A DNA stretch of 64,000 nt from the NCBI GenBank assembly GCA_905221615.1, contig CAJNDT010000976.1:1-64000 (forward strand), written 5' to 3'. The translations under genes were made by a program, and so were the position numbers. Positions 1,218 through 38,099 of this stretch are shown in pieces. The stretch's first letter is position 1. The number at the start of each line of letters is the position of its first letter. Source of the stretch: Symbiodinium sp. CCMP2592 (taxonomy: Eukaryota > Sar > Dinophyceae > Suessiales > Symbiodiniaceae). The notes beneath the pieces were generated by a model. The model did not search any database. It was not told the DNA's origin and saw only the letters and a program-made list of their open reading frames with translations.

Positions 1218-2074
1218 AGCGCGAGACTGCTGGACAGTTTGCGTCATACAAAGTACAAAGTACAAAAACAGCGAGTCGTGCTCGTGAAATTTTTCGTCGC
1301 GGTGAAAGCCTACCTGCTCCCGCGAGAAGTGATGTCCACCCGGATGGGCTACCAGACCTCACTGGCGAGCTCCGCGTTCGCGTTGCTAAGGCCAACGATC
1401 TTTATGCCGTCACTGGCAAGATCTTTGCACACTGCATCCGTTCTGGGAAGCTCGTCTCTTGCGAGAATCCAGGCCGCTCTTACTTCTGGCAAACGACCAT
1501 GTGGCTCGCTGCCGTTGCCGACCTGCAGTTTGAGGAAACCCTTTTTCATAACTGCCAACACGGCGGCGAGCGTGCCAAGCTCACCCGCCTAGCCCATAAT
1601 GTCCCTTTGCTACACGAGCTATCCCTTCTCTGCCCGGGGGAATCAACATCTCATCGCCACCTGCCCTGGTCGCGATCCTCAGGTGCCTTCGACACAGCCG
1701 CCGAGAAGGTCTACCCTCGTGTGCTCTGCCAACGTATGGCCGACATCATTGTCCGTGCTGCCGCCGAACGTGGCCACACTGCACCCGCTTCATACCTTGC
1801 GCCTGGTGCTGCCCTTCCCCTGCGTGAGTCTCAGGTTGCAGCTGGTGTGCAACCTCGCAGCAAGCGTGTGCCACCCCTTGTGCCCGAGTTTCGGCAGATT
1901 GTGGTTCTTTTTAGTCCTGAACCCCTCTTTCCCGGCGTGCGTAAGCTGGAAGCCGATACCCCCCTTCCACCTTGTGTCTCATGCTCGCCCTCACTGCTGA
2001 CGCTTCCCGCGGGCACTGCGCCAGAGTGTCATTGGGGTTGTGCCAGCTGGAGCGCAGAGATCGTGCTCGAGTAA
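1218..2074 (+). pseudogene. Methyltransferase-like domain remnant of E1
   Basis: This frame is open after a TAG near 1,215 and holds the C-terminal half of the methyltransferase-like domain seen whole in E3. The visible landmarks occur in the same order as in E3. They are an HPDGLPDL segment, an AKANDLYAVTG segment, a motif-VI-like CENPGRSYFW, then FHNCQHGGERAK, HRHLPW and YPRVLCQRMADII. The N-terminal half, with motif I and the PP/PC motif IV, is missing, so it is unlikely to be catalytic. The frame overlaps the following pol frame at 2,040-2,074 in a different phase, implying a frameshift between domains that are fused in E3. I identified it by comparison inside the window. Confidence 0.6.
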
Positions 2075-4886
2075 CTCAGCCGCCTTATCCACACCTGTGT
2101 CGCACCCCACAGTTGCCCCGAATGCCGAGGCGGAGGACGATGGAAACTTAGCCATCATGGAGGACGACCAGATGGACCCCGAAGCTTTCTCACATTATGC
2201 TCTCCACTTGGGAGCGTCAGCCAGCAACGAAGCATGGCGTGACTGCATTTGCCACTTGTGTGAGCTACTTGTCTCGGATACCCCGTCTAGGGGCGGGCGA
2301 GGCACTGACGAATTCTCCTGGTCATGTGGTGCCTTCTTTCATGCCAACAAGGTGGGCCTGCGTTCCAATACCTCATCGCACCCCAGTGTGAGCAAACTCT
2401 TGTGCGAGTATGTGCGCCGGGTTGCCCCGGGCCACCCTTTCACCTCCCTGATGCTGGGCAAGAACCTCGCAGGCAAGGTGCATACCGATAGAAACAATGA
2501 GCCAGGACTGCCGAATGCAGTCTTGAAGATTTCCTCCTTCGAGCAAGGGGGAGTGTGGATCGAATCACCTAGTGGCTCCGTCGCTTGTCCTGATCCTGGC
2601 CACCCCGAGCTTTTGGGAAATGTTCTTGACTTCGAGGGCCGACGGATAATCTTTGATCCGAGTGGTAGACATTGTCAAGCTCCATGGTGTGGGGGACCTA
2701 GGATCACGCTTGTTGCCTATGCGATACGCGATCACCACAAACTTCTTGACGATCAGAAGACACGGCTTGTTGACCTTGGTTTCAGCCTCCCTGGAAGCTC
2801 CCCAGAGTGCTGCCCAACAGCCGGTCCCGAGGCAGCCACCCGTAAGTCTGGTTTAGGCCCCAGCTCCTCGACTAGGCCACCACCTGGGATCCCGTCCCGC
2901 AGCATGCCAGAAGATGGCCGAATGCACAAGGTGGCCGTGGGCATCCCTTGGAAACCTCAGGAGTTCATCGAGCAAGCACTGAAAGCTGGGCACCCCCGTC
3001 ACCTCTTGGACGGTGTGCCATCGCATTCCAAGACGGCCATCGACCGCCTTGCTGACATGTCGCTCCACGAGATAGGAGCCCAACGCACCGAGAGGCTCCG
3101 GCATTGGATCAGCAAGGCCCGTGAGCTGGAAGCCGAGGAAGAGGAGTTGCGTGACTCAATGCCGCAACATTGCAAACGTGTCCTGGGTCGGAAGCGGCTG
3201 GTCCTTTTTAGGACCATGCTCGAGGAGTGTGGCCACGAAGACCTAGAGATAGCGAATGACATCGCCAAGGGTTTTGACCTCAGTGGTGCGATCCCGAGGA
3301 ACCCAGCATATCGCCCCAAGTTGTCACCTGCTTCTTTATCCGTCTCTGACCTCCGGAGCTCTGCGGCTGTGATGAGGGAAGCAACTCTTCTCGCCACCAA
3401 AAGTTCCGGGGACCCTGAACTTGATGAGGCCCTCATGGCAGCCACTGACAAGGAAGTCGCCAAGGGGTGGTTACGAGGACCTATCGATCCTGCGTCGCTA
3501 GGTCCTAATGCTGTTCTCTCGCGCCGCTTCGGCGTTTGGCAGGGCGGCAAGTGTAGGCCTATAGATGACTTCAAGGCCTCTGGGGTTAACTCGACGACTT
3601 CAGCCGAAGACTCGGTGACTGTGCACACGGCGGATGCAATCGCCGCTTCCATTGCTTACCGTCTCAAGCGCGACCCAAAGTGCCGACGACACGGCGGGCT
3701 TGAGATGAAATCTTATGACTTACACAAGGCGTATAAGAATCTTCCTTTGAGCACTTCGGCGGTGGAAGAAGCTTATCTCTCGGTGTACAACCCCCGGTCG
3801 GGGAAAGCAGAGATCTACGAGCAGTGCGTGTTGCCCTTCGGCGCTCGTGCGTCGGTCCACTCGTTCTGCAGAACTTCGCTTGGCATCTGGACGATTGGGG
3901 CGATTCAGCTGGCTTTGATGTGGTCAGTGTATTACGACGACTTTGTCGGCAACGAAGTCCCGCCACTTACACGGCTCTTTGACCTTTGCGCTGAATCGCT
4001 CTTTCAGATCCTTGGCTGGGACACGTCTCCAGACAAGCCTACCACCTTCGGAAGCGTGGCAAAAGTCTTAGGCCTGGAGTTTGACTTGCGTGAATCCTAC
4101 CTCGGCAACTTCTACATGAGAAATACGACGGCTCGACGCGAGGAGCTGAGAGAAAGTCTTTCTTCTATCATCGGAAAAGGGGTGCTGGCTAGGAAAGACT
4201 GCGAGAAGCTGAGGGGCCGCCTGCAATTTGCCGCCAACCAGGTTGCTGGGAAGAAGGCTGGCATCGCATTCAAGATCCTGTCCAAACATCTTACGGAACG
4301 AAGCCCTAGCATCGGAGACAATCTGAGGGCTGCACTTCTGTTCCTGAGGGACAGATTTCTTGAAGGGCCCCCGAGGGCTCTGAGTGCCAACGTCTTGCAT
4401 CTTTGGCATGTGTATGTGGACGCTTCTTGTGACAACGATCGCATCGGTCTTGGAGGAGTTCTTATCTCAGACAATGGGACGAAAGTTGGGCACTTTAGCG
4501 AGTGGGCCTCTGATGAGCTACGACTTCTCGTTGGCCCCGAGAGCAAGAACCCCATCTTCGAGTGCGAGTGTTTGGCGGTACTTATGTGCATACATGTATG
4601 GAGGGGACTCCTTAAAGGATGCAACACTGTCGTTTTCTCGGACAACGAGGGCACTCGTGCCTGCATGATCAAAGGAGCGTCAGACAACTCAGTCGGGATG
4701 CGCATCGTAGATGCCACTCATGATGCCATCGACGCCGCGAGCTGTATACCTTGGTTTGAGCGCGTGAATACTGCATCAAACATAGCAGACGATCCCTCTC
4801 GAGGAATATCTGACGAAAGCCTTGGTCAGCGTTTCGAAGTGGATGCGCTGAGCATCGCAAAGTCTGCATTGGTTCCGTGGGGATGA
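2040..4886 (+). CDS. E1 pol: 2OG-dioxygenase-like, reverse transcriptase, RNase H
   Basis: The first ATG is at 2,157; the frame is open from a GTG at 2,040. Residues about 40-250 form a 2OG-Fe(II) dioxygenase-like domain: an HTDRNNEPG iron-binding motif (about 2,478), FEQGGVW, then FDPSGRH with the distal His and PRITLVAY with the likely 2-oxoglutarate Arg. It closes with the LGFSLP motif shared by the other elements here. A linker follows. The reverse transcriptase spans about residues 470-720, with FGVWQGGKCRPIDD, VLPFGARASVHSF and the catalytic box YYDDF. RNase H spans about 790-930: YVDASCDND, ECECLAVL, VVFSDNEG and ASNIADDPSRG. This RT-RH arrangement is DIRS-like. No integrase or protease is present. 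The stop lies inside the first terminal repeat. The frame is intact over 900 residues, so the copy may be fairly young. Confidence 0.85.
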   Translation: MPAGAQRSCSSNSAALSTPVSHPTVAPNAEAEDDGNLAIMEDDQMDPEAFSHYALHLGASASNEAWRDCICHLCELLVSDTPSRGGRGTDEFSWSCGAFFHANKVGLRSNTSSHPSVSKLLCEYVRRVAPGHPFTSLMLGKNLAGKVHTDRNNEPGLPNAVLKISSFEQGGVWIESPSGSVACPDPGHPELLGNVLDFEGRRIIFDPSGRHCQAPWCGGPRITLVAYAIRDHHKLLDDQKTRLVDLGFSLPGSSPECCPTAGPEAATRKSGLGPSSSTRPPPGIPSRSMPEDGRMHKVAVGIPWKPQEFIEQALKAGHPRHLLDGVPSHSKTAIDRLADMSLHEIGAQRTERLRHWISKARELEAEEEELRDSMPQHCKRVLGRKRLVLFRTMLEECGHEDLEIANDIAKGFDLSGAIPRNPAYRPKLSPASLSVSDLRSSAAVMREATLLATKSSGDPELDEALMAATDKEVAKGWLRGPIDPASLGPNAVLSRRFGVWQGGKCRPIDDFKASGVNSTTSAEDSVTVHTADAIAASIAYRLKRDPKCRRHGGLEMKSYDLHKAYKNLPLSTSAVEEAYLSVYNPRSGKAEIYEQCVLPFGARASVHSFCRTSLGIWTIGAIQLALMWSVYYDDFVGNEVPPLTRLFDLCAESLFQILGWDTSPDKPTTFGSVAKVLGLEFDLRESYLGNFYMRNTTARREELRESLSSIIGKGVLARKDCEKLRGRLQFAANQVAGKKAGIAFKILSKHLTERSPSIGDNLRAALLFLRDRFLEGPPRALSANVLHLWHVYVDASCDNDRIGLGGVLISDNGTKVGHFSEWASDELRLLVGPESKNPIFECECLAVLMCIHVWRGLLKGCNTVVFSDNEGTRACMIKGASDNSVGMRIVDATHDAIDAASCIPWFERVNTASNIADDPSRGISDESLGQRFEVDALSIAKSALVPWG

Positions 4887-5202: not shown

Positions 5203-5251
5203 CCACCCTTCAATCGTGATTGACAGGGTATTATTTCCAGATTTTGTTTTG

Positions 5252-5746: not shown

Positions 5747-5763
5747 GCTTCGAGTGCCTTCAA

Positions 5764-6613: not shown

Positions 6614-7810
6614 GCAGTACGATGGTTTTCTTCCACGGTGCAGCCCTCTGGCTTTCCTTCATTATATGATGGCCTGTTCCATGCCAGGTCATGGCAGTCG
6701 CAGGGTGCATCTAAAGAGGCTTTACCTCTTCCATTATCCTTTGTACTGTGGCTGGAGACTCAAATCGTGTGCGGCCACTTTACATTGGAAGAGACTGCTT
6801 TCGCGGGATCAGTGCTTGTTTGCATTTGGTGCAGCTTGAGGTTTGGCGACTCTCAACACATTCAGTTGTCGGATCTCTACATTGACTTCGATAGCTTTAG
6901 AGGTGCATCTTACCGAACGAAAACACAAAAAATTATGGCATTTGGCTGCCTTTTCTCAGGCCTTTGAGGCTACCACGCACACAATGCTGGCTTTTACATT
7001 GGCTAGTGGCTCTCGAGAAACTTATGGATTTGCATTCTGATCCTTCAGACAGACCGGACTACATTTTCTTCCTTCTGGACAAAGGGTGCATCAGACCTTT
7101 GACTTACGCAGAGTGCCTGTCGAGGCTCAGACGATTGCTGGTCATGTGGAACCAGCTTCCATCAGAGCAAGAACTCCAATATACATTGCATTCCATGAAA
7201 GTTACATTGCTTTCTTTCTTCAGGCAACTGAATATGTCGCTTGAATCGAGGCACCTTCAGGGCCACCACAAGCACTCGGCTTCTTGTGTGTTATATGGGC
7301 GAGACGATGTCTCTCCATTACTGCTCGCTCAGGACAGCTTCATTGAGAAAGTTAGAGGAGGCTGGCGATCGCGAACTCCATTAATGCGTGGAGTCACCTT
7401 TATGCCAGTTGAGCCAGCTTTGCAGTGGCCTCCGGATCTAGGGGCAGTTTTGTATGCTGCATTGCCAGTCTTCTTCAGGTTGGATACATTTCCGCCGACT
7501 TTGGTGCCCTCGCCTGATGTACCCTCAGCTTCGGCTGCATCGGTCGCACCGGTCAAGGATGTGATTGCATCTGCTTTGCCTTCAAAGGTTCCGGAAGAGG
7601 CGGAAACAAGCAGCTCGGAGGGCGAGCTGGGCGAGGCGGAGGAGATTGCTTTCCTCAGTGCAACAACTAGCTCCATTATACATGCTTGCATTGAAGGCAA
7701 ACCGGCTTGCGGCTGCCGGGGAACCTTCCATTTGATCTCGCACCCACCTGCGGGCTCGCGATTTTGCAAGTCAAAGTCTTGCATTTCCATTCTCACGAAC
7801 CTCTCGTGAA
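6614..7810 (+). pseudogene. Tyrosine recombinase of E2, one frameshift
   Basis: The catalytic residues of a tyrosine recombinase can be read across two frames. The first frame (to about 6,967) has the box-I arginine in CSLRFGDSQHIQLSDL and the beta-hairpin lysine in YRTKTQK. The second frame (from about 6,964) has LHSMKVTLL, in the place of HxxR with Lys instead of Arg, then GHHKH, and the nucleophile context VLYGRDD. A phase change near 6,955-6,967 separates them, so the gene is broken as sequenced. After the recombinase comes a Pro/Ser/Glu-rich tail with a short Cys cluster (ACIEGKPACGC). In such elements this enzyme integrates a circular double-stranded DNA intermediate. The N-terminus starts abruptly at the end of the preceding repeat. 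Confidence 0.75.
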
Positions 7811-8834: not shown

Positions 8835-9339
8835 CTGCATCCTCCATCGTGCATTCTTGCACTTTTCTCCATTTTAACAATGGGTTGACGGCCCAGGAGG
8901 TAGATTCAGGTCTCCTCCACAGCTTCGGCAGCCACCTTGGCGCCCGCAGCCGACCTCCCAGCGAGGGAGTGAAAAGAGTTTTCGGATCGGACTGATTGCG
9001 TTGTCAGCTTGCATCTGCTGAGTTCGGACCTTTGCGGTTCATGTCCTTCAACACTACTGTGTTGCATTTCTTTTGGCCCCAGCGATTGCCATGCTTAGGC
9101 ATTCTTGTGGACATCATGTCACGACACTTTCTCGGAGTGCATTCTTACATCCACTGCACGATTTACATTCTCCAAGGCACTTGCAGCTCTCTGGTAGCCC
9201 ATACCAATTTTGCAGAGTACACGAGTGCAGCTTTGGCTTTCTCCGCGACTGGTGCATTCGCACCATTTACAGGCCTGAGGTCACTGCATTTCTTCTCTTA
9301 TTCCTTTGTGTCGCTGCCAGGTCATTTTCTTTTGGGAGT

Positions 9340-10542
9340 ATGTCGTCCCCCAGCTTGGAACAAATCCTCAAAGAGGAAAAAGTTCCGGATCTCATTGCAG
9401 GGCAGCTCACTTCGCAACTCACGGTCCGCTCCTTTCCTTGCATTTGCGAAGGTGTGGACACTCTGCCAGACTGCATCAAGGATGTCTTGGACGCCCCGGG
9501 CCAAGCTCTCCTTACGACTGTCACTTTGGCGTGCTTGAAGGCAGCATACCATCGCTGCATTTCTTCCGTTATTTCGGCGACACCCTCAGCTACGTCGGCG
9601 CCTCCTGCATCGGGCAGTGGAGCTCTCAGTACATCTTCGTGGACAGAGCCTTTTCCTGCGAAGTTGAGCATTGAACGAGTGAATACCATGAGAGCTACAT
9701 TCGAAGCTTCATATCCCTCCGAAATTCTCGATGCATCCAGTATGCCCTCGTCAAGGCTCCTTGCATCCTGCAACAAGCAAGTGCAGGACAAGCACTTTTC
9801 TTACATTCCATGGAAGTTTCGTCTCAGCGAAGAGAAACAGGAAGATGTTACATCATCCAGACCGAAAAAGATCGCACGTCTCGACGACTTCATTTTTGAC
9901 GACGTCCCCTGCAGGGACATAGCTGATACTGGCGTGTCGCAAATGTTCCTTTCGCATTTGCTAGACTTGATCGCCTTTGCATTTTGTTTGCTTAACATCG
10001 GCCACCTCAGCTCCTTTCGTGCATACAACAAGCTCTTCATAAAGCTTGCATTCCATCGTCCGCCGCCGGAGTCAGGGCTGAGAAGCCCGAACGTCACGGA
10101 AATGCAGGCGGCGGACAGAGAAGCATGGAAATGCATTTGCGAATTGGTGAACAAAGGTTGGTGCATGGATGATGCATTGCATGAGATCGTGCAAGTCCGT
10201 TGCATCCTGCAGAGTCACTTGCAACCGCGAGTTTTCATTCAGAAAACCAGGAGGCCCAGCACCGGGTCAGGCAACCAAATTCAGCCTGAAAAAACCCACC
10301 CGAAGGGCAAAGGCGGCAAGGGCAAAGGCAAGAATGGGAAGTCGAAGGACAATCGCGATCAGAATGGCCCCAAGTGGATGGTTTCATTTTATGAGAACGG
10401 CGTTCAGAAGCAGATGTGCAAGCGATGGAACCTTCGCTCGGGTTGCAAGTTGGATGACTGTGCATTTGTCCATGGTTGTGCGGTCGATGTGGGTGGCAGG
10501 CCTTGTGGAAAGGATCACCCCGCTTACATGCACAAGTCCTGA
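9340..10542 (+). CDS. E2 gag-like protein with CCCH zinc finger
   Basis: This is the likely nucleocapsid/capsid protein of E2. The frame is open further upstream, but MSSPSLEQILKEE at 9,340 reads like a natural start. The body is helical with no clear motif. A basic Gly/Lys-rich linker (KGKGGKGKGKNGK) leads to a C-terminal zinc finger: MCKRWNLRSGCKLDDCAFVH, a C-x8-C-x4/5-C-x3-H pattern typical of gag proteins in these algal retroelements instead of the retroviral CCHC knuckle. A second Cys/His group follows (CAVDVGGRPCGKDHPAYMH). The stop is TGA (10,540-10,542). The pol frame continues in the same phase directly after it, with no further stop, which raises the possibility of stop-codon readthrough. 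Confidence 0.75.
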   Translation: MSSPSLEQILKEEKVPDLIAGQLTSQLTVRSFPCICEGVDTLPDCIKDVLDAPGQALLTTVTLACLKAAYHRCISSVISATPSATSAPPASGSGALSTSSWTEPFPAKLSIERVNTMRATFEASYPSEILDASSMPSSRLLASCNKQVQDKHFSYIPWKFRLSEEKQEDVTSSRPKKIARLDDFIFDDVPCRDIADTGVSQMFLSHLLDLIAFAFCLLNIGHLSSFRAYNKLFIKLAFHRPPPESGLRSPNVTEMQAADREAWKCICELVNKGWCMDDALHEIVQVRCILQSHLQPRVFIQKTRRPSTGSGNQIQPEKTHPKGKGGKGKGKNGKSKDNRDQNGPKWMVSFYENGVQKQMCKRWNLRSGCKLDDCAFVHGCAVDVGGRPCGKDHPAYMHKS

Positions 10543-10557: not shown

Positions 10558-13500
10558 GTGGAGGGGCAGCTTTCTGGGCTTGCACCACATGCACCCTCGC
10601 CTTTGCCATCGGCTGGTCATACATCCACTTCTGATGCAGAAATTCTTGACTTGCTTCAGCAATCTTTTACATCAACCACGGTGAAATACAGATGGCAGGC
10701 TATTGAGGGGGATCGTACGGAGGCCGCGTACTTCAACCTCGGTGGTTTCTCTCAGTCGGTGCGTTTTGGCCTGACACATCATACATTCCAATACCAGCAC
10801 ATTTTGTGCCGACTCAATGCTTGGTTATGTATGCTCTTTCCATTGGGTACATGGACTTCGTTATGTGTCTCTCACAACGAAGTGCTCAAAGTCCATCGTG
10901 ATACATCCAACGAGCCAGGCACCCTCAACTACACTGTTGCTCTGGGTGACTTTTCTGGCGGAGGTTTACTGCTGGAGTCCTCATCGGGCGAGAAATCCAT
11001 GCGAGTTGAAGCTTTACAGAAGTGCATAAATTTTTCATTGGTTGATACCAGGTCATCGCCTCTTGCATTCGATGGTGGTCTTTGGCACGCCACTGAGCCC
11101 TTCGTGGGCGACAGGTGGGTCATCACGGCCTACACTTGCAGGCGGTTGGCGGAATTTCAATCCTCGGACATTGATGCATTGCGCATGTGGGGGTTCCCCC
11201 TACCTGGGGAATCCCTGCCCCGTCGGATGCCTCAACCTCAGGCGGTCGAACTGCCTCAGCCTACTTTGCCGAAGAAATTCTGCCTTTTACTGGCTTCTCA
11301 GCACTCTGAGGTACTTCGTGCCGGCCTCTCAACTGCTGGTGTTCCTCATGTGTGCATTCAGTCTCTGGATCAGGAGCATACCAGAAATTGCATTTTTCGA
11401 TGTGCTGGGGAAGGTGTTTTTCCTTCCATTTTCATGGTGTACTCCCCTGACTGGAGTGAGAGTCACACTCGCTGGGTGCTGCAACTCTGCAAAGTTGCAT
11501 ATTCGGCAGGTTCTGCGGTGCATTTTGATATTTCGGGCTGGAACCAATGCTGGTCGGATCAACTGTTCCTTCACTGCATTTGTACTGGTCTGCAGCACAT
11601 CGTGCAGGTGCCGGCGTGTGCCTACAAGGGGGTTGGTGGTAGCCCATGGGTCATGGTCTCCTCATCGCCTTCCTTTTCTGCATTGGGGCACCCATGCTCG
11701 TGTGGTCGGTGCTGTTCGACCTCCACGACCTCTGATTATCCTCCTGCATTCGTGGATGCTCTTTGCGATATACTGTTGATATCCAAACTCCGCAATTGCT
11801 CAGGTCAATGTGAACTTTCCATTGATGAGGCTTGGTCTTGCATTCCAGAAAAGCCGATTGGCTCTCCACCACATGCTTGGGTGGATGGTGGCGGGCTTCA
11901 TAGCCGTCCCGACTGGAGTGGCCAGGAGCGATCCACTGATGATATTTTCAAATCGCTCCGCCATGCCTTAATTGCTTGGTGTGGCAAGGCATGCATTCCT
12001 TCCAGAGTTCGTCAAAGATTGTTGCATCCATCAGATTCCCATCTCTTCTCGGAAACTGAGGTGAAGGAAATCCGTGGACTCTTCAGCACATGGCTGGGGT
12101 CCCAGGGTTGCACTTCCATTGATTGGCAAGTGAAGGATGGCCAGCCATACTGCTTGAATTCCCTGGCTGCATTGTCCTCCGCTCTTAAAGATGCGGATAT
12201 GACTCTCTTCAGTGCATTACTGAGTGGGGTTCCTACTGGCTTCAAACACGATATCCCCATTTCAGGTGTTTTCGCTCCATCGGGTCGCTCAGCCTCTGAT
12301 GATGCATTAACGGTTTGCCAGGAAAACTGGCAAGGTGCTGAGGACGACCCAGTCCTTCTCGAGGAGCTGGTGCAGATCGAGGTGGACAAAGGCTGGTTAC
12401 GGTGCATTGAGTCGTTGGAAGCTGCACGGCAGATCTGGCCGAACGTTGCTGTTGGTAAGCTGAATATTGTACATTCCGAGGGCCGAAAACCTCGCTTGGT
12501 TGTTGATTCTTCCATTTGTGGTACAAATGCCTGCTGCCTCATTCCTGAGCGTTCTGCATTGCCTACATTGCAAACTATCCAAGCCTCTTGGCCATTACGG
12601 GGAAAGCTAGAACCCCTGGCAGCTTGGTCCATTGACGTTCAGGCAGCCCACAAGTCCATTATGGTGCGCGAGTCAGAACAAGGGCTGCTTGGCATTCGAG
12701 TGGGTCCCAAGCTCTATTTCTATACAGTTTGTCCATTCGGTGCAGCTTTTTCAGCTTTCTGGTTTGCTCGCCTCGGTGCATTTTTCGTTCGCACCCTTCA
12801 TCGCTTGATTTTCATTGCCCACTGGCTGGCAATGTATGTGGACGACTTACTTGGCTTTCAATCTGCATCAGTTGCAAAGATGAGCTTTTGCATTACTTTA
12901 TGTTTCTGTGGGGCCTTTTCCATCCCCTTATCCTGGAAGAAATTACAGTTTGGATGCTCCATCCGATGGATAGGATGGGAGCTCAATTTCAGTATGGGCT
13001 GTGTTTGCATCCCATCTGACAAGCTTGAAAGGTTGCATTCAGTTATCGTGTCGGCACTCCGTGGCAAGTACACTGACCGGGCTACATTGAGCAAGTTGTG
13101 TGGCATGTTGCAGTGGCTTTTCAAACTGTTTCCATTGGCTAGGCCATGGCTGAGGTCTCTTTATCAGGACCTCAACACTCCACGTGCAACCAACTTCAGT
13201 GTTCGACAGAACGACTGGCAATCATTCATTTCTTGCTTGAACGACACTTTACATTTGGTCAAGCTACCTCCTGGATCGGCGGTTACGGTGGGCAGCCGTG
13301 TTCTTGCTGTGAGACATCACAAGGTTTCCACCAAGCGCGAACTTTTACATTGCAACCTGGGGGATAAGGATATATGGCTTCGCATTGCAGACTCTGCCTC
13401 CAAGCGTCGTGCATTGAGTCCATCCTCCAGAAGTCTGTTGCAGTTCTGGCTTGATTGGTCTGCATTGCCTCCAATTTGGCGATCGCTTCGCCCTATGGAG

Positions 13501-15566: not shown

Positions 15567-16801
15567 ATGGCGGCGCCGGCTGCTCTGACGGTCGCGCAGA
15601 GAGGGCACTTGGAGACGTTGGGACCGGATCTCAGGTTCCAGCTTGAGCAGCGGATGTTCCGGCTGTGTGGCAGGCAAGGCTGGGAGAGCTGGGAATCCGC
15701 AATGTGGCTTTGTTCTCGGGGCTCGATGAGTCTCGGGAGCGGGTGAGAGCAGCACTGATTGCGGAGCTGCCCATCGATCCTACAGCGGGGGTCGCAGAGC
15801 GGCTCGTGGTGGCACGCCTATTGGCGGCTTGGGAAGCATCCAGGCTTCACTTGCAGGTTTCGGAGAGAAACAAAGCTGAAGCGCGGCTGGGGACTCAGCA
15901 GCGACTTGTGCAGCCTAGCGAGCATCATGCCATGCGGCTGGCAGTTGAAGCATCGCTCGGAAAGTTGAAGGACAAGGAGGTTCCTGCCAAGTTCTTGCTA
16001 GCGGCCAAGCTGGAGCAGATCGAGAACAATCAGCCGGTAGCCGAGCTGCTTACGGAAGTGGCGTCGCTCGAAGATTCAGAACTCGAGGCGTACTCGGCGG
16101 TGATCGATCCTACTACCAATGTGCTTAAAATAAAGCCTGGGAAGACTCTTACTGGCATGCCCAACAATCCTGAGGAGCTGCGGTTGCGCCACAGGCGCAT
16201 CGGGCTAGCTTGGGACTTCCTGGCGACCAAGCATGCTCTCAGGCCCTGGCTGTCCAGAAACTCCACGGATGTCCTGCGGAGGTTCAGTGATTATGTGTTG
16301 GGATCACAAGTTGCTGGATTGGTGGCTGGTGACGGGCACACTCCAACTTGGGAGCTCGTCTTGAGCTTTGAACTCGAGGCTCGCAAAACCCTGTATCGCT
16401 GGATCCGGGACGGCGAAGTGGGCACTATCGAGGAAGCCTTTACAAAGGCCATGCATGATATGGAGCTTCTCAATCGACATCTTGTCATTCCTTTCTCGCT
16501 TCGGGCCGTGCCGCCTCCCCCGTCTGTTCCGGCTGACGGGAGGCGCGAGTCCAAGGGAAAGGGCAAAGGCAAAGCCCTGAAACGTGCATTGGCTGCTGCG
16601 GCAGCCGAAGAGGCCCCTGGCAAGAAGGCTGCCAAGCTCATGAAGACTCCAGATGGCAAGCCTATTTGTTGGAAGTTCAACGGGAAAGAAGGGTGCAAGA
16701 ACAGCGCCTGTCGCTTCCTTCATGTATGTCAACGTTGTCTCGGCAAACACCCTTATCATGCATGCACGCAATTGTCGTCCGGAGGCGGCTACAGCATCTA
16801 A
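15567..16801 (+). pseudogene. E3 gag-like protein with CCCH finger, probable frameshift
   Basis: An ATG at 15,567 opens a frame (MAAPAALTVAQRG...) that seems to continue, after a phase change near 15,645-15,665, into the longer frame ending at 16,801. The long part is Ala/Glu/Arg-rich and helical. A basic stretch (SKGKGKGKALKR) precedes the finger ICWKFNGKEGCKNSACRFLH (C-x8-C-x4-C-x3-H), followed by VCQRCLGKHPYHAC. It resembles the E2 gag in layout though not closely in sequence. It is probably the RNA-binding structural protein of E3. The following pol frame starts just after the gag stop in another phase. Confidence 0.65.
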
Positions 16802-16805: not shown

Positions 16806-19800
16806 CTCTCGGACGGCGGAGACACCGAGGAGAACGTCTCTCAAGGACTCGATTCGCCTCCACAATCCGACATTTCTTTCCTCTATCTATTCGCGGGAGA
16901 GTCTCGCCGGGCTGACTTGAAATCATTCCTGGCGGCTGCCTGCGAGAAAGCCGGGCTGTCATTCCGCTATCAAGAAGTTGATATCGGGGAGTCGGCTCCG
17001 GATGTTCTTTCAGACTCTTTTTGGTTGAGATTGCTCAATCAAGTTCGACGACATGAATTCAATCTTCTTTTCATGAGCCCGCCATATTCTACATTCAACC
17101 GGGCCACGTTCGTCAATCGCACAGGACCACCGCCTCTGCGGAACTCGGACTGGCCGGAAGGTTTTCCTTGGCTATCCGGTGTATGGAAATCCAGAGCAGA
17201 GGCTGGAACGAGTTTGGTGCGCCGGGTATTGTCCTTAGCCACCCTGGCCACCAATGAGCATGTACCCTGGTTGATTGAGCATCCGGAATTTTTGGGTGCT
17301 ACGGCGGCTGGCACCCCGGCTTCAATCTGGACTTGGGAAGAAGCTGTTCGTGTTTTCCAGGAGACTCGCGCCACTTCGGTGACACGATTAGCTGGAACCT
17401 GGCACGGTCTACGATCGGTTGGTGTGGCCGGTTGGCCGCGACTTGACCCTCAGCAGCACTATCGAGGGCCGTTGTCTCGCAAATGCGGGCATGCGCATGC
17501 CCCTCTCATCGGCACCGACGAAAATGGTCATTTTCTCGCCGGGCCGGCTGCTTACCCTTCGGGCTTCTGTGAAGCGCTGGCCAGTATTGCGGTTCTCACC
17601 TTCAGGCAAAGAGTGTCCTCCGAATCGATGTTGGGGGAGGAGCAAGCTCGTTCTTCTGACACTCTTGAGAATGCGACTTCGACAGCTGTGGTCCACCAGG
17701 CTGAAGCTCTGGCACTGCGTTTGCAACACTCGGCGGTCTCGAAGGAGTCTTTACTTCAGATCTTCGACTTACTTCCCGGCGAGGAATTGTCCATCACTTG
17801 GAAGGATTCGAAATCTTTTGCTGTCGGGGCTTATGCCGTGGGCGGTAGCCTTGCCGGCCTTCGTAGGAACTCCAGGTTGTTTCCCGGGGTGGCTAGGGTT
17901 TTGTGTAGGTTTGTTCGGGGTCTGGACGCAAGCTTTACATTCTCTGCCATTGCGATATTTCGCAACCTTCAGACGGCCCCGCATCGAGATACAGGCAATG
18001 AGCGAGGATCGAGAAATCTCGTGGCAGGGCTCTCGTCCTTTCGGGGCGGGGGCATCTGGACTCAGGATGGCGGAGGTCAGGAACCGTGCCCTTCGAATCC
18101 CTCATTAGGCTTGGGACATACTCTCGAGCTCGATGATGGCTGTCATGTTTGTTTCGATCCCACCGCTTGGCACTGCACGCAGGCTTGGGAAGGGACTAGA
18201 ACAGTACTCGTGGCATACACCCCTCGGGTGAATCCTTCCTTTCCTTCGGCCGACTGGAGGTTTCTGGAGTAGCTGGGATTCAACTTGCCGCCCCAGCCGG
18301 GGGTTGCGTCCTTGCCACACGCGGTGAAGCGCATCCTGGAGGACAACAACGATGATGCCGTGCCGAAGGACGATGAGTGGTGGAGACCCAAACCCGACAA
18401 CCAGGACGACGAGGAGGAGGGTGGCTCTACTTCTGAAGAGGATGTCGATGGCGTTCCCAAGGCAAAGCTAGGTGAGGGTATACTCGGCTTTGGACCTCCT
18501 CTGAAGGCCACTCTCGTGGGAAAGCGGATTGATTTCTCCGATGGGCATGGCTTGGCATCTCCTGGCCGATGGTTGCCAAAGGACAGGCCAACAAGTCTCA
18601 CGCATCCGGACATTTCCTTGCACGGGCAGATTTTCGAGGACGCTCTGCACATGCTCCAGAAGCACATCGACGTGAGGAAGGAAATCTGTCGCTTGGCCAC
18701 GGGGAGGGCCACGTCTTCGCCTTTCCCGGATTCGATGGTGGTGGAGATGCGCTCGCTTGTTTTCCAGCGGCTGAGGGACTGGGGCTCCACGAAAGAGCTC
18801 GAACATGTGGCTCCCCGACAACCTTTCTACCTCGAGGCCATTGGGGAGCTCTTGAGGGCAGCTGGAGACCCGGACTGGAGACAATATGCTTCTTCATCCG
18901 TGTCCTTTGCAAGAGGGGTTCCGATCGGGGTAGGGGAGCGCCTACCTCGGACGCCTGCACTTTTCGAGCGGAAGTACAAGCACAGGAAGTACCCAGATGC
19001 CGACACTCCGCTCGAAGACGGTCTTCGCGAAAACTATCCCGGGGCGCGAGACAACCCCGTCCAGCTTGATGAGCAGCTCGCCAAGGAGATGAGCCTGGGG
19101 GCGATGATCGCGCTCGACTTGGAGGAGGCCCGGGCGAAACATGGTGATTCCTTATCTGTCGCATCGCTTGGGGCGGTGCCCAAGCCAGACGGCTCTCTGA
19201 GGATTGTGCATGACGGCAGCAATGGGCAGCATGTCAACGATTGCATCCGTGTTCGAGATGCCCAACGATATCCTACGGGCGCTGATCTTCAAACTGCCGT
19301 GGAAATCTTGCCACACGCTTACTTCTCTCTGAGTGGTGACATCAGCAGAGCTCATCGTCTTTACCGTGTGCGGGAGCAGGACTGGCCACGACAAGCTTGT
19401 CGTGGATCAAACCCAAAGAAGATATACTACAACTGCGTGGGGACGTTCGGCATCGCTTCAGCTTCTTACTGGTGGTACAGACTCATGTCGGGACTTGGCA
19501 GACTTCTGTACTACTGTCTGCAAGGCGACCCGACGGTTCTCTTGAGCTATGTGGACGACCTCATATGGCTTACCCAGTCCGGAGACGGGCTGATCAAGAT
19601 CTTGGCGACCATCTTATTGCTTCAGGTACTTGGAACCCCATTTGCCTGGCATAAGTTCGCCGGGGGACTGGAGCATGGCTGGATCGGATTCTCGGTGTTC
19701 GCTTTCGGGAGGACGATTGGCATCAGCCAGTCAAGGACTGATTGGATCGTCGGCTGGATCCGTAAGACCAGGGCCGACGGCATGGTGCGAGTGGCCGACA

Positions 19801-28092: not shown

Positions 28093-28266
28093 AGTTAATC
28101 ATACTCGAGCCCCAAGCACCTGCATGATGTAGCTAAGATGTCCTTGTAGAAGGTAGATGAAGAGCAGCTTGACGCACACGAACGTATTTGGCTCAAGTAA
28201 AAGAAGTGCTGTGAGTGCTTGCTTTTGCTTGTTTTGTAACACGACGGGTTTACTTCGTGTTCAACT
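28093..28266 (+). repeat. 5' LTR (174 bp)
   Basis: This runs from AGTTAATCATAC to GTGTTCAACT and matches 38,179-38,352 over its full length. It contains TTTGGCTCAAG (28,187-28,197), which equals the last 11 bases of the dinoflagellate spliced leader as I recall it. Confidence 0.93.
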
Positions 28267-33500: not shown

Positions 33501-36500
33501 ATTGCGTCCAGATCACTTGGGATTCGGATCGTGTCATTTATGCCCATAAGGTTGATGACTATGTTCCGGTATTTCGTGAGCAGATCAGGTTTGGTGGTGA
33601 TGGTTTGCACAGAGCCTTAGCCGCTGGTGAGTCTGCTCCGGCAGCCCCAGCAGAGGTTCCTGCGCCCGCTGTCCCAGCAGAGGACCCTCCTCTCCCAGCT
33701 CCCGCAGCACCCCCTCCACCTGATCCAGGGGAAGGTTCCGGTGCCGACGATGAGGGTGATGAGGATGCACCAACCAAGGCTCAGCGGCTAATCACTGAAG
33801 CCCAGAGTTTACAGCATCGCTTAACGCATATGCCAAAGAACCCCTACTGTGATGTCTGCAGTCGGAGTCGAATGCTAAAGAAGCGAACGGCGAGGACGCG
33901 CTATGCAAAGTGTGATGATGAGTTAGATCCGGTTGAGGAGTTCGGTCAACGGATAGCGGCTGATTTCATCATAGTGCACAAAGACGCTAAAAGCACTGAA
34001 ACCGTCGTCCTGACTGTGAGGGATGAGGCTACAGGGTACATAAGAGCTTTCCCGCTAGTGTCCAGGCACGAAGACGGGGTGGTACGATCATTGTTATCCT
34101 TTCTCGGTAGGCGCGCTTCTGGACCTTGTGTATTGTTCAAGAGCGACAATGCGCGAGAGCTCCTCGCCGCATGTGCGACGTTGGGGTTTACTTCAGAACC
34201 AAGCCTTGAGCGTAGATGGCCTCACAACTCAGTTCTCGAACGGGAGATCCGTACCATCGAGGAGTGTACAAGGGCTCTCCACATTGCGGCCGGTTTTCAG
34301 TTGCATTCGGGTCTTTGGGTTCACACTGTTCGCTATGCGGCACACACCATTAACCTTTTCCACCCTGCGGTCGGGATTGAGGGTTGTCGGTATGCGAACG
34401 CGATTGGATCCGAGTTTGGTGGCATGAAATTACAACTTGGTCAACTAGTCTATTACAGACTTGACCCGGCAAACCGTGAGAAGTTTCAGGCATCAGCAGC
34501 ACCTGGTGTTTTCGCAGGTTGGCGGTTCGATAGCGGTCCATCATCATTCAGAGAAGTCTACTATGTCTTGGATTATGGTAAGCTAAAGAACCGTGAACCG
34601 GGGTACGAAAAGGCGATCTCCGTCCCTAGAGAGGAAATCCACGTTCCCCGCGGCAATCCCATCCTCCCGATGTTCACCGCTGCAGAAGCTGCTTTGTCTA
34701 GTTTCACGAAAGCCGAGTATGAAGCCATCGAATTTCTTGATGTGCCGTTCAGCACGGTAGCGCCGTCAACACCCGTTGCCAAGCGCCACGAGTACATTAC
34801 TTTGGACAGACTTATGCGACTAGGTGCAACACCTGGTTGTAAGGCCTGCAAGTTCGATGGAACAGTACACACGCCAGTATGTAAGGCAAGATTTGATGGT
34901 TTGATTAAAGCCGAGAAGATTGCCGCGAGCAAGTCAGTCAGAGACGCTGCACCGCCTGATGTTGAGCGCCCTGATCCTTTGGCGGAGTCTGCACCCGCAG
35001 CCCCCGAGGGTGATGAGGATGCTCCAGAGCGCGCGAGCTCCTCTGCTGGCAAACGGGCTCCAGCTGGTGTTGTAGTCCAGTCTTCCGAAAGCAAAGTTCC
35101 AACAGGTGAGTTTGGTTTGAGTGCAAGGTTTCTCGCAAACGAGAGAGCGCGTAACAACACCAGAAGGGTGAAGGAACTTCCAGGGGAAAATGTTCTTATC
35201 GAGTACGGTTGTGAAGACGAGTCTGAGATAAGAGATGCTTGTGAACGTTGTAAGGTTCATTGTGTTAGTCTGTCCCAGTCAACGCTGGACTTGACTTCGC
35301 AGGATGACATGCAGCAAGTTGTTTCCCAAGCAATCCCGGGTGTAGATGCTTGGTTCACCATACCATGCACACATATGTCTTCACACCAAGCCGTACATCG
35401 TGAGTCCCAAAGTCCCAAGTACGCGCGAAAGATTGCACAAAGGCAAGCAACATCCAAGCGAATGTTGGTTTTGGCCCTAAATGTTGCCGACCATATCATT
35501 GAGCAGGGGGGTCGGGTTTCGTTTCAGTGGAGTTCTGATTCGGGGGTGCTTGTGCAGCCTGAGTGGATCGACTTCGCTTCGAAACACGAGCTCTCCAGTG
35601 TAGCCTGTGTCAGCGGTAACAAAGCCACCACCATTGCTTCGAACTCCAAGCGAGTACTGGAGCACTTCGCAAAGGTGTCAACGAAGGAGTCATCAGAGAT
35701 CAATGCAACCAACATCAAAGCGTATGAGCTTGCGGATCTCGTGATACAATCCTTGTTTCCCCAGAGGTACTTCAAAAGTGTCCCCAATCTTGGTAAAGCT
35801 AGCGCGCTTATCACCAAGAATCTCTCTCGCCGAGAATGGCAAGCTGAGCCGAAGGCGCTTGAAGCCATCGCTCAAGAAGCTGAGGGGTTGCGCCGAAACG
35901 GCACATGGGATGACACGACGGCCATGCCTTTGCATGAGTTGAGAAGTCAGGCTAGGTCTCAGGGACGCAAGCTTCGCGTCGCAGAACTGATGACCTTGTG
36001 CGGGGTAAAGCATGCCGAACTTGCACCTGAATTTCAAAAGTTCAAAGGGAGAATTGTTTATAGAGGGGATAGGGTTTTGGATGAGTTTAACAATCTGGTT
36101 TTCTTCGAAGAGACCAGTACGACTCCAACGGGGTTAATAGCCTTGAACGCCTCCCTCTTCTGGGGTTGCTTACCGGAGCACTCTGTGTCATGTTCTGACG
36201 CAATCCAAGCATACCTCCAATCAGAGCTTAAAGAAGAGACATACGTAATCCTGCCAAGGGAGTTGTGGCTCCCTGGTTGGGAGGAGCGTTTTGGAGCGCA
36301 AGCGCGAATAGTCGTTCGACTTCGCAAGAGCTTGTACGGCCACCCACAGGCCGGACGGCTCTGGCAAGAGTACTTGTCTAGGATTTTGATCTCATTAGGC
36401 GGAAAGGAGTCCCAGGAGTTTCCAAGCAACTGGTTCTTTGAGTACAAGGATGGGGTTCTCATCTTAAACATTTACGTCGATGACTTGAGTTTGTGCGGAT

Positions 36501-38020
36501 TAACAAAATTGCACACGCCATTTTGGCAAGCGTTGAGGGCGAAGGTCAAACTTGATCCCGAGTGTTTCATAGGTTCTGAGGGTGTTCGGATCTTAGGTAG
36601 ACTGCATTGTCGGTACGATGAACCATCGTCGACCACAATGGCTTTTAGGATGCCTGAGTATGCTGAGCAGATTGTCCAAACCTATTGCGAGATCACCGGG
36701 ACAACGCCCGACAAGCTTCGCCGAGTGAACACGCCCTGCATCGCTGAATCGTCAATGACCGACGAGGATATCTCAGCGCAAGGCGAGCTCCACGATTCAG
36801 CATCACGCATCTTGATGCGCTGTTTGTGGTTAGCTCGTCTCTGTAGAGCTGACATCGCATTTGCTGTAACTCGCCTAGCTTCCAGGGTCACTCGGTGGAC
36901 CGCCTGGGAGGACAGACAAGTGCTTAGACTTGTGTCGTATATTCATCACACCAGAGATGTTTGCATGAATGCCAGTTGCTCTTGGGATGCCGCTCCCGAG
37001 CTACGGGTGTATACAGACGCTGACTTCGCAGCCTGTCCCTACACTTCACGTAGCACGTCCGGGATTGTAGTCCACATAGGCACAGGTCAGCATGCATTCC
37101 CTGTGATGTGGCAAAGTCGCAAGCAAACGTCTGTTGCGAGGTCGACGCCAGAGGCCGAAATGATCTCAATGGCATCAGCCATGTTTTCAGAGGTCATAAA
37201 CCTGCAGACGTTCTTACAGTCAGCCTTCAAAAGCACAGTGCCAATCATCTTCTTCCAAGACAATGAAACTGTTTTGGCCATCCTGAAGTCAGGATACAGT
37301 CCAAAGCTTCGCCACTTAGGGCGCGTGCACCGCGTAAATGTGGCAAGTATGGCAGAGATCTTTGAACAAGAAGATTTTTCGGCTACTTACGTGAACAGCA
37401 AGGAGCAATTAGCTAATGGTTTGACTAAGATCATCCCTCCTGCTGAGTGGTCTGATATGCTCACACAGTTGTGCCTTCACGAAGGTGTCCCTCACAGTGC
37501 GACCGTCTCAAAGGTCGTAGCTGAGGAAGCAGAGCGTTTTGCAAGCTCACTGCCCAGGAAGATCACACAAGAAGACCTTGTGCAGCTTTTGTCGTACTTG
37601 CCGGGGGAGAGCGCCGTGCGCCCCTCTGCAAGTGAGGCAATGTGCTTCACCACCGGTGCGTTCGCGCACGGAGGTGGGATCGCAGGTTTAAGGCAAAATG
37701 TAACCCTCTTCCCAGTAGTCACTGCGGTTTTGTGCAGGTTCATCCGTAGGGTGTTGCCTAAGCATAAGTTTACGGCAGTGATGTTGGCCAAGAATCAAAT
37801 TACTGTGACTCATAAGGATTCTTACAACGAGCCATGCAGCAAGAACGCTGTAATCCCACTTGAAGTGTTCGAGGGGGGCCACGTGCACAAGACGGTGGCT
37901 ACCCATGCCCAGACCTCAGTCGAGGTGAAAAGGGCGAGATCCTTAAATGGCCAGCGATCTTCGATCCAAGACGGTTACATGCGACGACCCCTTGCACGAA
38001 GGGTGACAGAATCGTCATAA
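30551..38020 (+). CDS. Copia gag-pol polyprotein with MTase-like and 2OG-like insertions
   Basis: Single 2,489-codon frame. Gag: three coiled-coil repeats ending SENQQLG (about residues 140-210), an acidic belt (about 380-430), and a CCCH finger CFFYPKGTCTRGKDCPFEH (about 766). Protease: WVADSGAGRSL (about 885). Integrase: zinc motif HRLTHMPKNPYCDVC (about 1,090), then the D, D, E residues in RIAADFI, LFKSDNARE and NSVLEREIR (about 1,138 to 1,230). A methyltransferase-like insert (about 1,545-1,740) has LIEYGCEDESEIRDA, IPCTHMSSHQA with a Cys after Pro, and VSFQWSSD. RT: SLYGHPQAGRLWQ and NIYVDDLSL (about 1,976). RNase H: YTDADFAACP, STPEAEM, FFQDNETVL, EQLANGLTK. The C-terminus begins a 2OG-like domain (THKDSYNEP, about 2,422) but goes out of frame near 37,928-37,934, where one base appears missing from an AAAAGGG run. 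The correct continuation with the distal His and Arg is readable in another phase to 38,099. Confidence 0.92.
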   Translation: MPLASQLGFEESSLEISSSSTPPRAQALSVRPEAARQSDSSSSGPIRRNRARSLSYGPASRSSSLQSAPTFAANVGPARSQNPTGPNTSHQELHLHQHAHRQQVLQVVVDPVAHANMQSEATSAIMNARAETAAVFGEAEAVIQSLRSENQQLGAQAAAIQGESYAAIQALRSENQQLGSRASVIQGEAETVIGNLRTENQQLGEMNRELNQRLEKQAKMILEQQELSKAMHQQLIALQSHVQAAEPKNPSIPSSAIPASSTQNGADQAASAFNALQALAGEVGGTMRRIEQAIEVALSPKAKAKKQKAKAEATARAIASSVASPIPAKASGSSGSVAPGPVEFGLPPYQCSRKSIFTGRLHSATPASPPPPPQKLKPQVFDIADEDDFDEHGEDEGDEDGEDFEDDPIVPVAAHEPEDDRDYESSIYKYKDLKDIKLPQIPGSSVEFRAYRNSVLTQIASIDCSGKAVLLKWLQKSLDPSGSIALTRSLQQDCEGLPRLDGWISACISDAKHLKGEWGLQAQSYLERCHASGTMPSGRALLSILSRRYRIDKVRGPLVTLQSLFDLEPDSFSYQSLVAFKQRVEYVLNGLPERQWPDAETMFSWIYSRLKGCRMLSRTIDRVKDAKPGSKRRTFEYIWNGLEEVLAEVREDRNEQALKDSLKEDSKQKPKPDANAKAAAAKATPAAPAAKANAKAKAKGQGNDKPPKAPSKATPGVTDANRGAGEGANRDKGKGKGKGGGKDGKAKPQKPPAAKDSSAEQSGQRPACFFYPKGTCTRGKDCPFEHVDAPKKAAPSKAAPKVPAGVAMLAAASTGASACNIPSSFVRGFKATCRLITAPFRVFARFAAALSFALPATVHHSHDRIAATVSRPNCSGGSYFLDWVADSGAGRSLLSQSALADQGILTDMFSDHIRSTKPLQFETGNGVTSSGTFLTTTSDAFGSVESYVLQSCPVVRSLGQLVELQRKPFVWLPGSMPFFGSDEDCVQITWDSDRVIYAHKVDDYVPVFREQIRFGGDGLHRALAAGESAPAAPAEVPAPAVPAEDPPLPAPAAPPPPDPGEGSGADDEGDEDAPTKAQRLITEAQSLQHRLTHMPKNPYCDVCSRSRMLKKRTARTRYAKCDDELDPVEEFGQRIAADFIIVHKDAKSTETVVLTVRDEATGYIRAFPLVSRHEDGVVRSLLSFLGRRASGPCVLFKSDNARELLAACATLGFTSEPSLERRWPHNSVLEREIRTIEECTRALHIAAGFQLHSGLWVHTVRYAAHTINLFHPAVGIEGCRYANAIGSEFGGMKLQLGQLVYYRLDPANREKFQASAAPGVFAGWRFDSGPSSFREVYYVLDYGKLKNREPGYEKAISVPREEIHVPRGNPILPMFTAAEAALSSFTKAEYEAIEFLDVPFSTVAPSTPVAKRHEYITLDRLMRLGATPGCKACKFDGTVHTPVCKARFDGLIKAEKIAASKSVRDAAPPDVERPDPLAESAPAAPEGDEDAPERASSSAGKRAPAGVVVQSSESKVPTGEFGLSARFLANERARNNTRRVKELPGENVLIEYGCEDESEIRDACERCKVHCVSLSQSTLDLTSQDDMQQVVSQAIPGVDAWFTIPCTHMSSHQAVHRESQSPKYARKIAQRQATSKRMLVLALNVADHIIEQGGRVSFQWSSDSGVLVQPEWIDFASKHELSSVACVSGNKATTIASNSKRVLEHFAKVSTKESSEINATNIKAYELADLVIQSLFPQRYFKSVPNLGKASALITKNLSRREWQAEPKALEAIAQEAEGLRRNGTWDDTTAMPLHELRSQARSQGRKLRVAELMTLCGVKHAELAPEFQKFKGRIVYRGDRVLDEFNNLVFFEETSTTPTGLIALNASLFWGCLPEHSVSCSDAIQAYLQSELKEETYVILPRELWLPGWEERFGAQARIVVRLRKSLYGHPQAGRLWQEYLSRILISLGGKESQEFPSNWFFEYKDGVLILNIYVDDLSLCGLTKLHTPFWQALRAKVKLDPECFIGSEGVRILGRLHCRYDEPSSTTMAFRMPEYAEQIVQTYCEITGTTPDKLRRVNTPCIAESSMTDEDISAQGELHDSASRILMRCLWLARLCRADIAFAVTRLASRVTRWTAWEDRQVLRLVSYIHHTRDVCMNASCSWDAAPELRVYTDADFAACPYTSRSTSGIVVHIGTGQHAFPVMWQSRKQTSVARSTPEAEMISMASAMFSEVINLQTFLQSAFKSTVPIIFFQDNETVLAILKSGYSPKLRHLGRVHRVNVASMAEIFEQEDFSATYVNSKEQLANGLTKIIPPAEWSDMLTQLCLHEGVPHSATVSKVVAEEAERFASSLPRKITQEDLVQLLSYLPGESAVRPSASEAMCFTTGAFAHGGGIAGLRQNVTLFPVVTAVLCRFIRRVLPKHKFTAVMLAKNQITVTHKDSYNEPCSKNAVIPLEVFEGGHVHKTVATHAQTSVEVKRARSLNGQRSSIQDGYMRRPLARRVTESS

Positions 38021-38099
38021 TTGCCTTCACACCTAGAAACGTGAGCAGGCTGCCCGTCGACAGCCAGCTGAAGCTGCGAGAGCTTGGATTCCACTTCTA
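37934..38099 (+). pseudogene. Out-of-frame end of the copia 2OG-like domain
   Basis: Read in the shifted phase, this segment gives AIFDPRRLHATTP (distal His), GDRIVIIAFTPR (likely 2-oxoglutarate Arg) and ends LRELGFHF before a TAA at 38,097-38,099. These are the same landmarks, in the same order, as FDPTAWH / TRTVLVAYTPR / LGFNLP in E3. It is therefore the true end of the polyprotein, cut off by a one-base deletion. Confidence 0.75.

Follow-up and report, generated by a model that had tools for sequence, protein, structure and literature searches.

In Symbiodinium, cytosine methyltransferases are encoded within retroelement open reading frames (ORFs), those of DIRS or tyrosine-recombinase (YR) elements included, as exemplified by SymbioLINE-Dnmt and SymbioDIRS-Dnmt3; the available text of that report places DNA methyltransferases (DNMTs) in long interspersed nuclear elements (LINEs) and DIRS elements, states that Copia lacks any DNMT domain and contains no instance of the term 'TET' (PMC5890265). 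TET/JBP dioxygenases are encoded by fungal DNA transposons and some Helitrons, and phage hypermodification systems pair a C5 methyltransferase with a TET oxygenase, in genes that work with glycosyltransferases; the same source, in the portion available, states outright that no TET/JBP enzyme occurs in retrotransposons (PMC12730594). A 2-oxoglutarate (2OG)-dependent nucleic-acid dioxygenase is carried by orchid Ty3/gypsy retrotransposons, in which an AlkB protein with demonstrated activity on m6A in RNA is encoded by an additional ORF (PMC9289625). Here we describe a window of 64,000 bases (bases 1-64,000 of the 105,584-base contig CAJNDT010000976.1) from the 1.098-Gb, 5,383-contig genome assembly of the dinoflagellate Symbiodinium sp. 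CCMP2592, which is related to the algae living in corals. The window holds four retroelements, three DIRS-like YR elements (E1, E2 and E3) and one Ty1/copia element, all of which contain a 2OG oxygenase domain resembling TET/JBP, accompanied in some of them by a methyltransferase (MTase)-like domain (Table 1).

The locus differs from each of the described systems. The MTase-like domain is far more divergent than the recognisable DNMT of SymbioDIRS-Dnmt3, is paired with a 2OG domain and is also represented by a homologue in copia. Unlike the TET/JBP domains of fungal DNA transposons and some Helitrons, the oxygenase domain lies inside retroelement polyproteins, and, unlike the separate phage genes, both domains reside in one polyprotein. 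The orchid AlkB has a different residue six positions after the 2OG-binding Arg (R+6, see below). A pairing of MTase and TET/JBP domains in eukaryotic elements, dinoflagellate retroelements included, was not found in the literature searched, which contained few subscription papers, and the accessible text of PMC6338049 mentions no dioxygenase. DNMT retrotransposons and TET DNA transposons are thus known already; the new features are a TET/JBP-like domain in retrotransposons and its pairing with an MTase-like domain.

The 2OG oxygenase domain

A preliminary description of the window had reported an HxDxxN(E) motif in each of the four elements. All four motifs are present in open frames within a few bases of where they had been placed, at residue 161 of P0002 (window position 2,481), 118 of P0004 (10,894), 393 of P0006 (17,982) and 2426 of P0009 (37,811), and an alignment of the four domains displays 12 invariant columns, including the motif residues H, D, N, E and N. 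A profile was built from a seed of 13 relatives that included E3 and two other copia proteins and excluded E1, E2 and the window copia element. As this profile scores all three of the excluded domains strongly (E-values in Table 1), the homology of the 2OG domain across the two retroelement orders is not due to chance. In the window copia element the domain is divided between two frames, with the distal His and Arg in the second, while in its relatives L031-L035 and L046 it is unsplit and closes open frames of 2,485-2,599 codons, and in L041 it lies unsplit in a 1,089-codon frame.

The domain is abundant in open frames of this genome. Searches with the E3 domain returned 4,997 first-look candidates, the best 150 of which were scored; all had E<=1.2e-24 and 147 contained no internal stop, in frames of up to ~1,295 aa (YR pol) and ~2,500 aa (copia). 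The copia domain returned 4,769 candidates, with 145 of the best 150 free of stops in frames of up to 2,666 aa. Some entries are common to both lists, which comprise best matches only and are thus not unbiased rates. The copia form is also represented by two public clusters of 204 and 107 member sequences, and a scan of IMG/VR for viral relatives gave 10 pattern matches, none of which was a relative by tblastn.

Conservation was assessed by aligning 15 domains: 12 from loci chosen to cover the families and three of the window's own, its split copia copy being omitted. Nine positions (G42, H94, D96, N99, N105, G116, G125, H157 and R166) are invariant in all 15, such that the HxD...H iron triad and the 2OG-binding Arg are retained throughout, a conservation that the preliminary description had required of a wider set of homologues. 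The spacing from the distal His to the Arg is nine in 11 of the 15 domains; two domains have 10 and another two 12. The residue three after the Asp (D+3) is Asn in every domain, as is that 11 after the first His (H+11), and R+6 is invariably Tyr or Phe, no other column of the 161 without gaps being wholly aromatic. In hTet2, Asn1387 (D+3) contacts N4 of 5-methylcytosine (5mC), while CcTet has Gly at this position; 2OG is bound by Arg385 of CcTet, which lies nine residues past the distal His, and CcTet Phe391 and hTet2 Tyr1902, six after the 2OG-binding Arg, stack on the base (PMC11040006, as far as available). The base-pocket positions of the retroelement domains coincide with hTet2 Asn1387, CcTet Arg385 and hTet2 Tyr1902/CcTet Phe391. 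In ALKBH5 the corresponding residues are Arg277 and Arg283, placing an Arg at R+6 (PMC9289625), and an AlkB assignment is therefore given low weight, as R+6 is aromatic here.

Tet_JBP was the sole Pfam 2OG family to respond among the proteins scanned, two E1-type relatives matching at E-values of 4.4e-5 and 1.1e-4 and L040 at 0.26 (E3 in Table 1), with none of these matches reaching the curated cut-off. No Tet_JBP match in Pfam was obtained for L043 or for the three copia proteins scanned. Across the whole genome, Tet_JBP identified four places at E<=1e-3, none over the cut-off, in frames of 1,231-1,283 aa, in a scan that could miss a host TET gene with short exons; 14 control genomes yielded no places at this threshold. 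All four places are E1-type pols in which the 2OG domain (2.9e-40 to 2.5e-29 for the main piece; that of L060 is in two frames) is followed by an MTase domain (2.0e-18 to 4.6e-18). The AlphaFold2 model of the E3 domain is strand-rich, with a predicted template modelling score (pTM) of 0.87 and the predicted local distance difference test (pLDDT) value listed in Table 1. Prolyl hydroxylases bind 2OG through a Lys; a prolyl-hydroxylase assignment is likewise given low weight, as the 2OG-binding residue here is Arg. Collectively, the pocket residues and the Pfam response support the view that the 2OG domain common to the YR and copia pols is TET/JBP-like, as had been proposed.

The methyltransferase-like partner and its catalytic cysteine

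The MTase-like domain of the YR elements is marked by an N-terminal LYLFAG/VEVFSG strand, PPCxTFSRA, E(H/N)P and QCxFG...KPTR. The MTase profile identifies E3, which is in its seed, and E1, which is not; the E1 copy lacks the catalytic PPC and matches both the YR and the copia profiles (2.8e-11 and 0.003, respectively). In E2 no MTase was matched by hidden Markov model (HMM), the best of five hhalign scores being 22.7 (P=0.016), and in the L039/L040/L044 family the candidate region aligned at P=0.0017 to the E1-type domain and P=0.12 to the main profile. An MTase in E2 and in this family is thus at best weakly supported. The middle domain of the copia polyprotein aligned to the YR MTase with the motifs in register (P-value in Table 1), and when the polyprotein was tiled into 43 windows the four best (26.6-36.6) all overlapped the MTase region, the next best scoring 18.9. 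These data provide moderate support for homology between the copia domain and the YR MTase. The claim that all four elements carry both domains is therefore upheld for the 2OG domain, and for the MTase in E1 and E3, moderately in copia and not in E2.

The relationship of the YR partner to C5-cytosine methyltransferases is more distant. In single-protein comparisons against 24 proteins (17 from E. coli and, from this genome, seven PF00145 places), C5 MTases took the first three ranks (30.8, 28.5 and 22.5); overall, the C5 assignment is plausible but remote. Of 61 rows readable at motif VI, 60 have the Glu, in the form E(H/N/F)P and not ENV; motif VIII occurs only in a variant form. A few MTase members were matched by the PHROGs 'DNA methyltransferase' families (best 0.01), and the only PDB sequence matches of the profile were to DNMT2 (E 0.26-0.46). 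A model built from 22 sequences with P0017 first (pLDDT 72.9, pTM 0.72) has long disordered ends and a core in which many blocks exceed 90. Pfam DNA_methylase has no match in the window ORFs, and none of 124 listed PF00145 places, which are best candidates, falls on the window's contig; frames of ~563 aa with DNA_methylase (PF00145) recur often in the genome and are perhaps the known LINE-DNMT ORF. The preliminary notion of a methyltransferase-like partner is borne out for E1 and E3, by profiles and motifs, and is not supported in E2, where no HMM match was obtained; the YR partner is best described as a putative, divergent C5-cytosine-methyltransferase-like domain.

The two domains occur in three layouts: MTase-2OG-reverse transcriptase (RT) in the E3 type, 2OG-MTase-RT in L036, L038, L042 and L043, and MTase-RT-2OG in copia. 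Eight further YR pols (P0036-P0043) have an MTase and no detectable 2OG domain, and seven of them keep the motif IV Cys; one of the eight, P0041, also contains DUF4326 (1.5e-14). Across 66 MTase rows, copies included and E3 of the window counted twice (also as L001), 23 carry Cys at motif IV, 24 Tyr, 10 Ser, one Ala and one Gly, and seven are unreadable there; in the 2OG-bearing rows it is Cys in 12, Tyr in 19, Ser in 10, Ala in one and unreadable in six. All readable rows of the E3 family in this genome have PPY, while the close relatives P0011, P0024 and P0031 have PPC; family B of this genome has PPS, and in the copia families L031/L046 and L034 the Cys is absent at the aligned place. The PPY and PPS families show that loss of the MTase nucleophile occurred repeatedly next to a 2OG site that is constant in the domains aligned, a natural experiment on the purpose of the pair. 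A uniformly active writer-plus-oxygenase pair, as first envisaged, is not supported, the Cys being Tyr in the E3 family, Ser in family B and absent from the E1 copy and copia L031/L046 and L034.

Both domains are under purifying selection. Ratios of nonsynonymous to synonymous substitution (dN/dS) were calculated by the Nei-Gojobori method for pairs, not independent of each other, with dS of 0.02-1.5. Median values for the 2OG domain, in the four groups containing at least four sequences, were 0.10 in the E3 family (133/153 pairs), 0.04 in family B (43/55), 0.09 in E1-like elements (4/6) and 0.12 in copia G (5/6), and for the MTase 0.08 in the PPY (E3) family (160/171), 0.05 in a third group (4/6) and 0.15 (10/10) and 0.14 (1/3) in copia. 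The presence of the 2OG domain in both orders implies that it either passed from one to the other or was acquired by each from a shared source. In an unrooted 33-row 2OG tree, in which E1 and E2 occupy very long branches, a single copia clade is not rejected (approximately unbiased test, p-AU 0.427).

Possible roles of the pair

We favour, with modest confidence, the view that the elements encode a TET/JBP-type 2OG/Fe(II) nucleobase oxygenase together with a C5-MTase-like domain, and that the oxygenase acts on element DNA. Activity, substrate, timing and benefit of the pair are what we infer in the following scheme. The oxygenase would most likely meet element DNA inside the particle, within the pre-integration complex or at a fresh insertion, and oxidise the 5-methyl group of pyrimidines. 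Of these, 5mC would be the likeliest substrate, because the partner is C5-MTase-like and the oxygenase has the base-contact residue of hTet2; thymine would come next, because the oxygenase is maintained where its partner is dead. MTases with the Cys could supply 5mC for subsequent oxidation by the oxygenase, while those without it would provide a base-flipping or targeting scaffold, the substrate being 5mC deposited by the host. New copies would benefit by not being read as silenced or foreign DNA.

Several results weigh against this interpretation. The link of the MTase to the C5 set is remote (P=3.5e-4) and the copia MTase shows no signal to that set (P=0.21). In the single-protein comparisons, ubiB (21.0) and the non-C5 protein cheR (20.3, fifth of 24) rank directly after the three C5 enzymes, the other five of the eight C5 proteins score in the background range (14.4-19.1) and dam scores 15.4. 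Pfam DNA_methylase matches two of 22 members, the best at E 0.034, under the cut-off. The best Tet_JBP match has 29.6 bits (23.2 in a protein scan) against a cut-off of 34.9, and the 2OG profile gave two unrelated weak matches among PDB sequences and no TET. Of the 42 2OG-bearing rows readable at motif IV, 30 have lost the Cys; many of these rows are near-copies. Values of dN/dS for the 2OG domain are 0.09, 0.22 and 0.32 in groups with one usable pair, and the family B MTase has a median of 0.39 (25/45 pairs), with 0.13-0.14 in the three most diverged pairs. Finally, the observed/expected ratio of CpG is ~0.86 in E1, E3, copia and flanks alike and 0.66 in E2; there is thus no element-specific trace of 5mC.

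That the motif IV Cys was replaced several times while the neighbouring 2OG domain stayed intact could also be explained if the oxygenase alone were an anti-silencing eraser of host 5mC and the MTase-like domain a decaying remnant of an older writer, a possibility that we regard as less likely than the favoured one. Symbiodinium genomes are heavily CG-methylated (PMC5890265), and PPC survives in seven of the eight MTase pols that lack a detectable 2OG domain, both of which point in the same direction. A remnant should drift, yet the MTase of the PPY family is constrained, and PPC is kept in several 2OG-bearing families (12/42 readable rows). The constancy of the 2OG site in families that lost the Cys also accords with a JBP-like thymine hydroxylase that makes 5-hydroxymethyluracil (5-hmU) directly in element DNA, the MTase-like domain being a binding scaffold only. 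This base replaces 12-70% of dinoflagellate thymine (PMC6723414), and in B. minutum it is enriched over most repeats, most strongly Mavericks (PMC11071213). The C5-MTase-like character of the partner and the hTet2-like Asn at D+3 make this explanation unlikely, as does the finding that 5-hmU was strongest on Maverick DNA elements and not on the YR or copia classes (PMC11071213); moreover, a split host hydroxylase gene could escape the Tet_JBP genome scan.

That the pair acts on RNA, as an epitranscriptomic writer and eraser on element RNA comparable to DNMT2 on tRNA or the orchid gypsy AlkB, appears quite improbable. It would explain why the only PDB sequence matches of the MTase profile are to DNMT2, one of them a tRNA(C38) methyltransferase, and is in line with CCCH fingers in the gag-like and copia ORFs and with the m6A RNA demethylase of orchid gypsy elements (PMC9289625). 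The DNMT2 matches are weak, however, and derive from motifs that C5 enzymes share in general, R+6 is aromatic instead of the Arg of ALKBH5, and the Pfam response is to Tet_JBP only.

Returning to the favoured oxygenase on element DNA, if the pair is active these retroelements would act on their own copies as writers and rewriters of DNA bases. The broader proposal, that two retroelement orders run their own pathway in which the MTase writes 5mC, the TET-like oxygenase hydroxymethylates 5mC or thymine, and the numerous copies add to dinoflagellate 5-hmU, is doubtful; if true, it would represent a retroelement counterpart of phage DNA hypermodification. Dinoflagellate 5-hmU levels are matched in few organisms and the base is repeat-enriched; an abundant element-borne oxygenase is a concrete candidate enzyme, and a link between the two is possible.

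Element classes and other features of the window

The copia class is clear from RVT_2 and the two identical long terminal repeats (LTRs); as the LTRs are identical, the insertion is young. Pfam places an integrase (rve) 5' of RVT_2 in the copia relatives L046 and L034 and has no rve match in the window copy or L033. Evidence for the YR class includes the recombinase-like fragments 5' of E2 (best profile match in Table 1) and a YR-like ORF 5' of an E3 relative (5.7e-8) that covers the part preceding the HxxK box. In the relatives' upstream ORF, R, K, H..K, GHH and Y are invariant in the six ORFs picked for alignment, residues that we take to correspond to the catalytic R, K, HxxR/K, H and Y of tyrosine recombinases; these ORFs are unrecognised by Pfam and NCBIfam. 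E1, E2 and E3 each have paired repeats on the 3' side, which may belong to a split-repeat A-coding-B-A-B layout. The division into three YR elements and one copia element is clear for copia and supported, by fragments and repeats, for the YR elements, with no YR ORF for E1 or E3 found within the window by profile search.

Table 1. Features of the four retroelements, in window coordinates.
Feature	Position	Strand	Evidence
E1 C5-methyltransferase-like domain (putative), C-terminal part (CENP..., NCQHGG..KLTR)	1265..1768	+	profile E=2.8e-11, P0001 residues 16-183
E1 2OG (TET/JBP-like) domain	2238..2765	+	profile E=8.2e-37, P0002 residues 80-255
E1 RT + RNase H region	3708..4667	+	RVT_1 0.14 (weak), RT_RNaseH 4.9e-6
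E1 3' paired repeats	4874-5173 and 5418-5717	+	99% identical
Tyrosine-recombinase-like fragments 5' of E2	6719..7362	+	ORFs 6569-6964, 6901-7809; profile E=8e-4, 5.5e-11
E2 gag-like ORF	9022..10542	+	weak CCCH finger, zf-CCCH_12 0.058; UGA end, in frame with pol
E2 2OG (TET/JBP-like) domain	10732..11181	+	profile E=6.4e-15, P0004 residues 64-213
E2 RT core	12628..12981	+	RVT_1 0.0016
E2 3' paired repeats	14127-14326 and 14644-14843	+	100% identical
E3 gag-like ORF	15647..16801	+	open frame 5' of pol; no Pfam match
E3 C5-methyltransferase-like domain (putative)	16866..17624	+	E=2.4e-96 (in seed), P0006 residues 21-273; PPY for PPC; motif VIII stretch missing
E3 2OG (TET/JBP-like) domain	17703..18266	+	E=1.9e-87 (in seed); Tet_JBP 0.016; model pLDDT 88.9
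E3 RT core	19368..19616	+	RVT_1 0.0038
E3 3' paired repeats	20666-20874/21264-21472; 20898-20964/21498-21564	+	repeat comparison
copia 5' LTR, 174 nt	28093..28266	+	identical to 38179-38352
copia gag-pol ORF, 2,494 aa	30536..38020	+	RVT_2 5.4e-10
copia methyltransferase-like domain (putative)	35087..35791	+	P0009 residues 1518-1752; IPCTHMS at motif IV; hhalign P=4.9e-5 to YR MTase
copia RT core	36182..36502	+	RVT_2 5.4e-10, residues 1883-1989
copia 2OG, first part (HxDxxN)	37535..37888	+	E=2.9e-31, P0009 residues 2334-2451
copia 2OG, second part (distal His, Arg), other frame	37885..38064	+	ORF 37864-38097, E=3.3e-11
copia 3' LTR, 174 nt	38179..38352	+	identical to 5' LTR

The E3 pol frame contains one in-frame stop (18270-18272), between the 2OG and RT parts, while its relatives are open over ~1,295 aa. 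At the gag-pol junction of all nine YR elements looked at (E2 of the window, at 10540-10542, and L036, L037, L038, L040, L042, L043, L044 and L045), UGA is the sole stop between gag and pol in the same frame, as if the pol of these elements were made by UGA read-through; the preceding codon is CAG or GAG in the eight relatives and TCC in E2.

A tandem array precedes the copia element, extending from 26500, where the search started, to ~27,200 or beyond, with 41 overlapping copies in steps of 8 and 11 bases. Between the copia element and the end of the window are a Glycosyltransferase 61 ORF (40103-41494, 2.4e-7) and, beyond it, an AT-rich stretch (50000-64000, GC 0.27-0.33) that may be a virus-like or Maverick-like insertion and whose ORFs match Peptidase_S74 (57767-59260, 1.2e-11) and DUF5901 (52750-53640, 2e-6).

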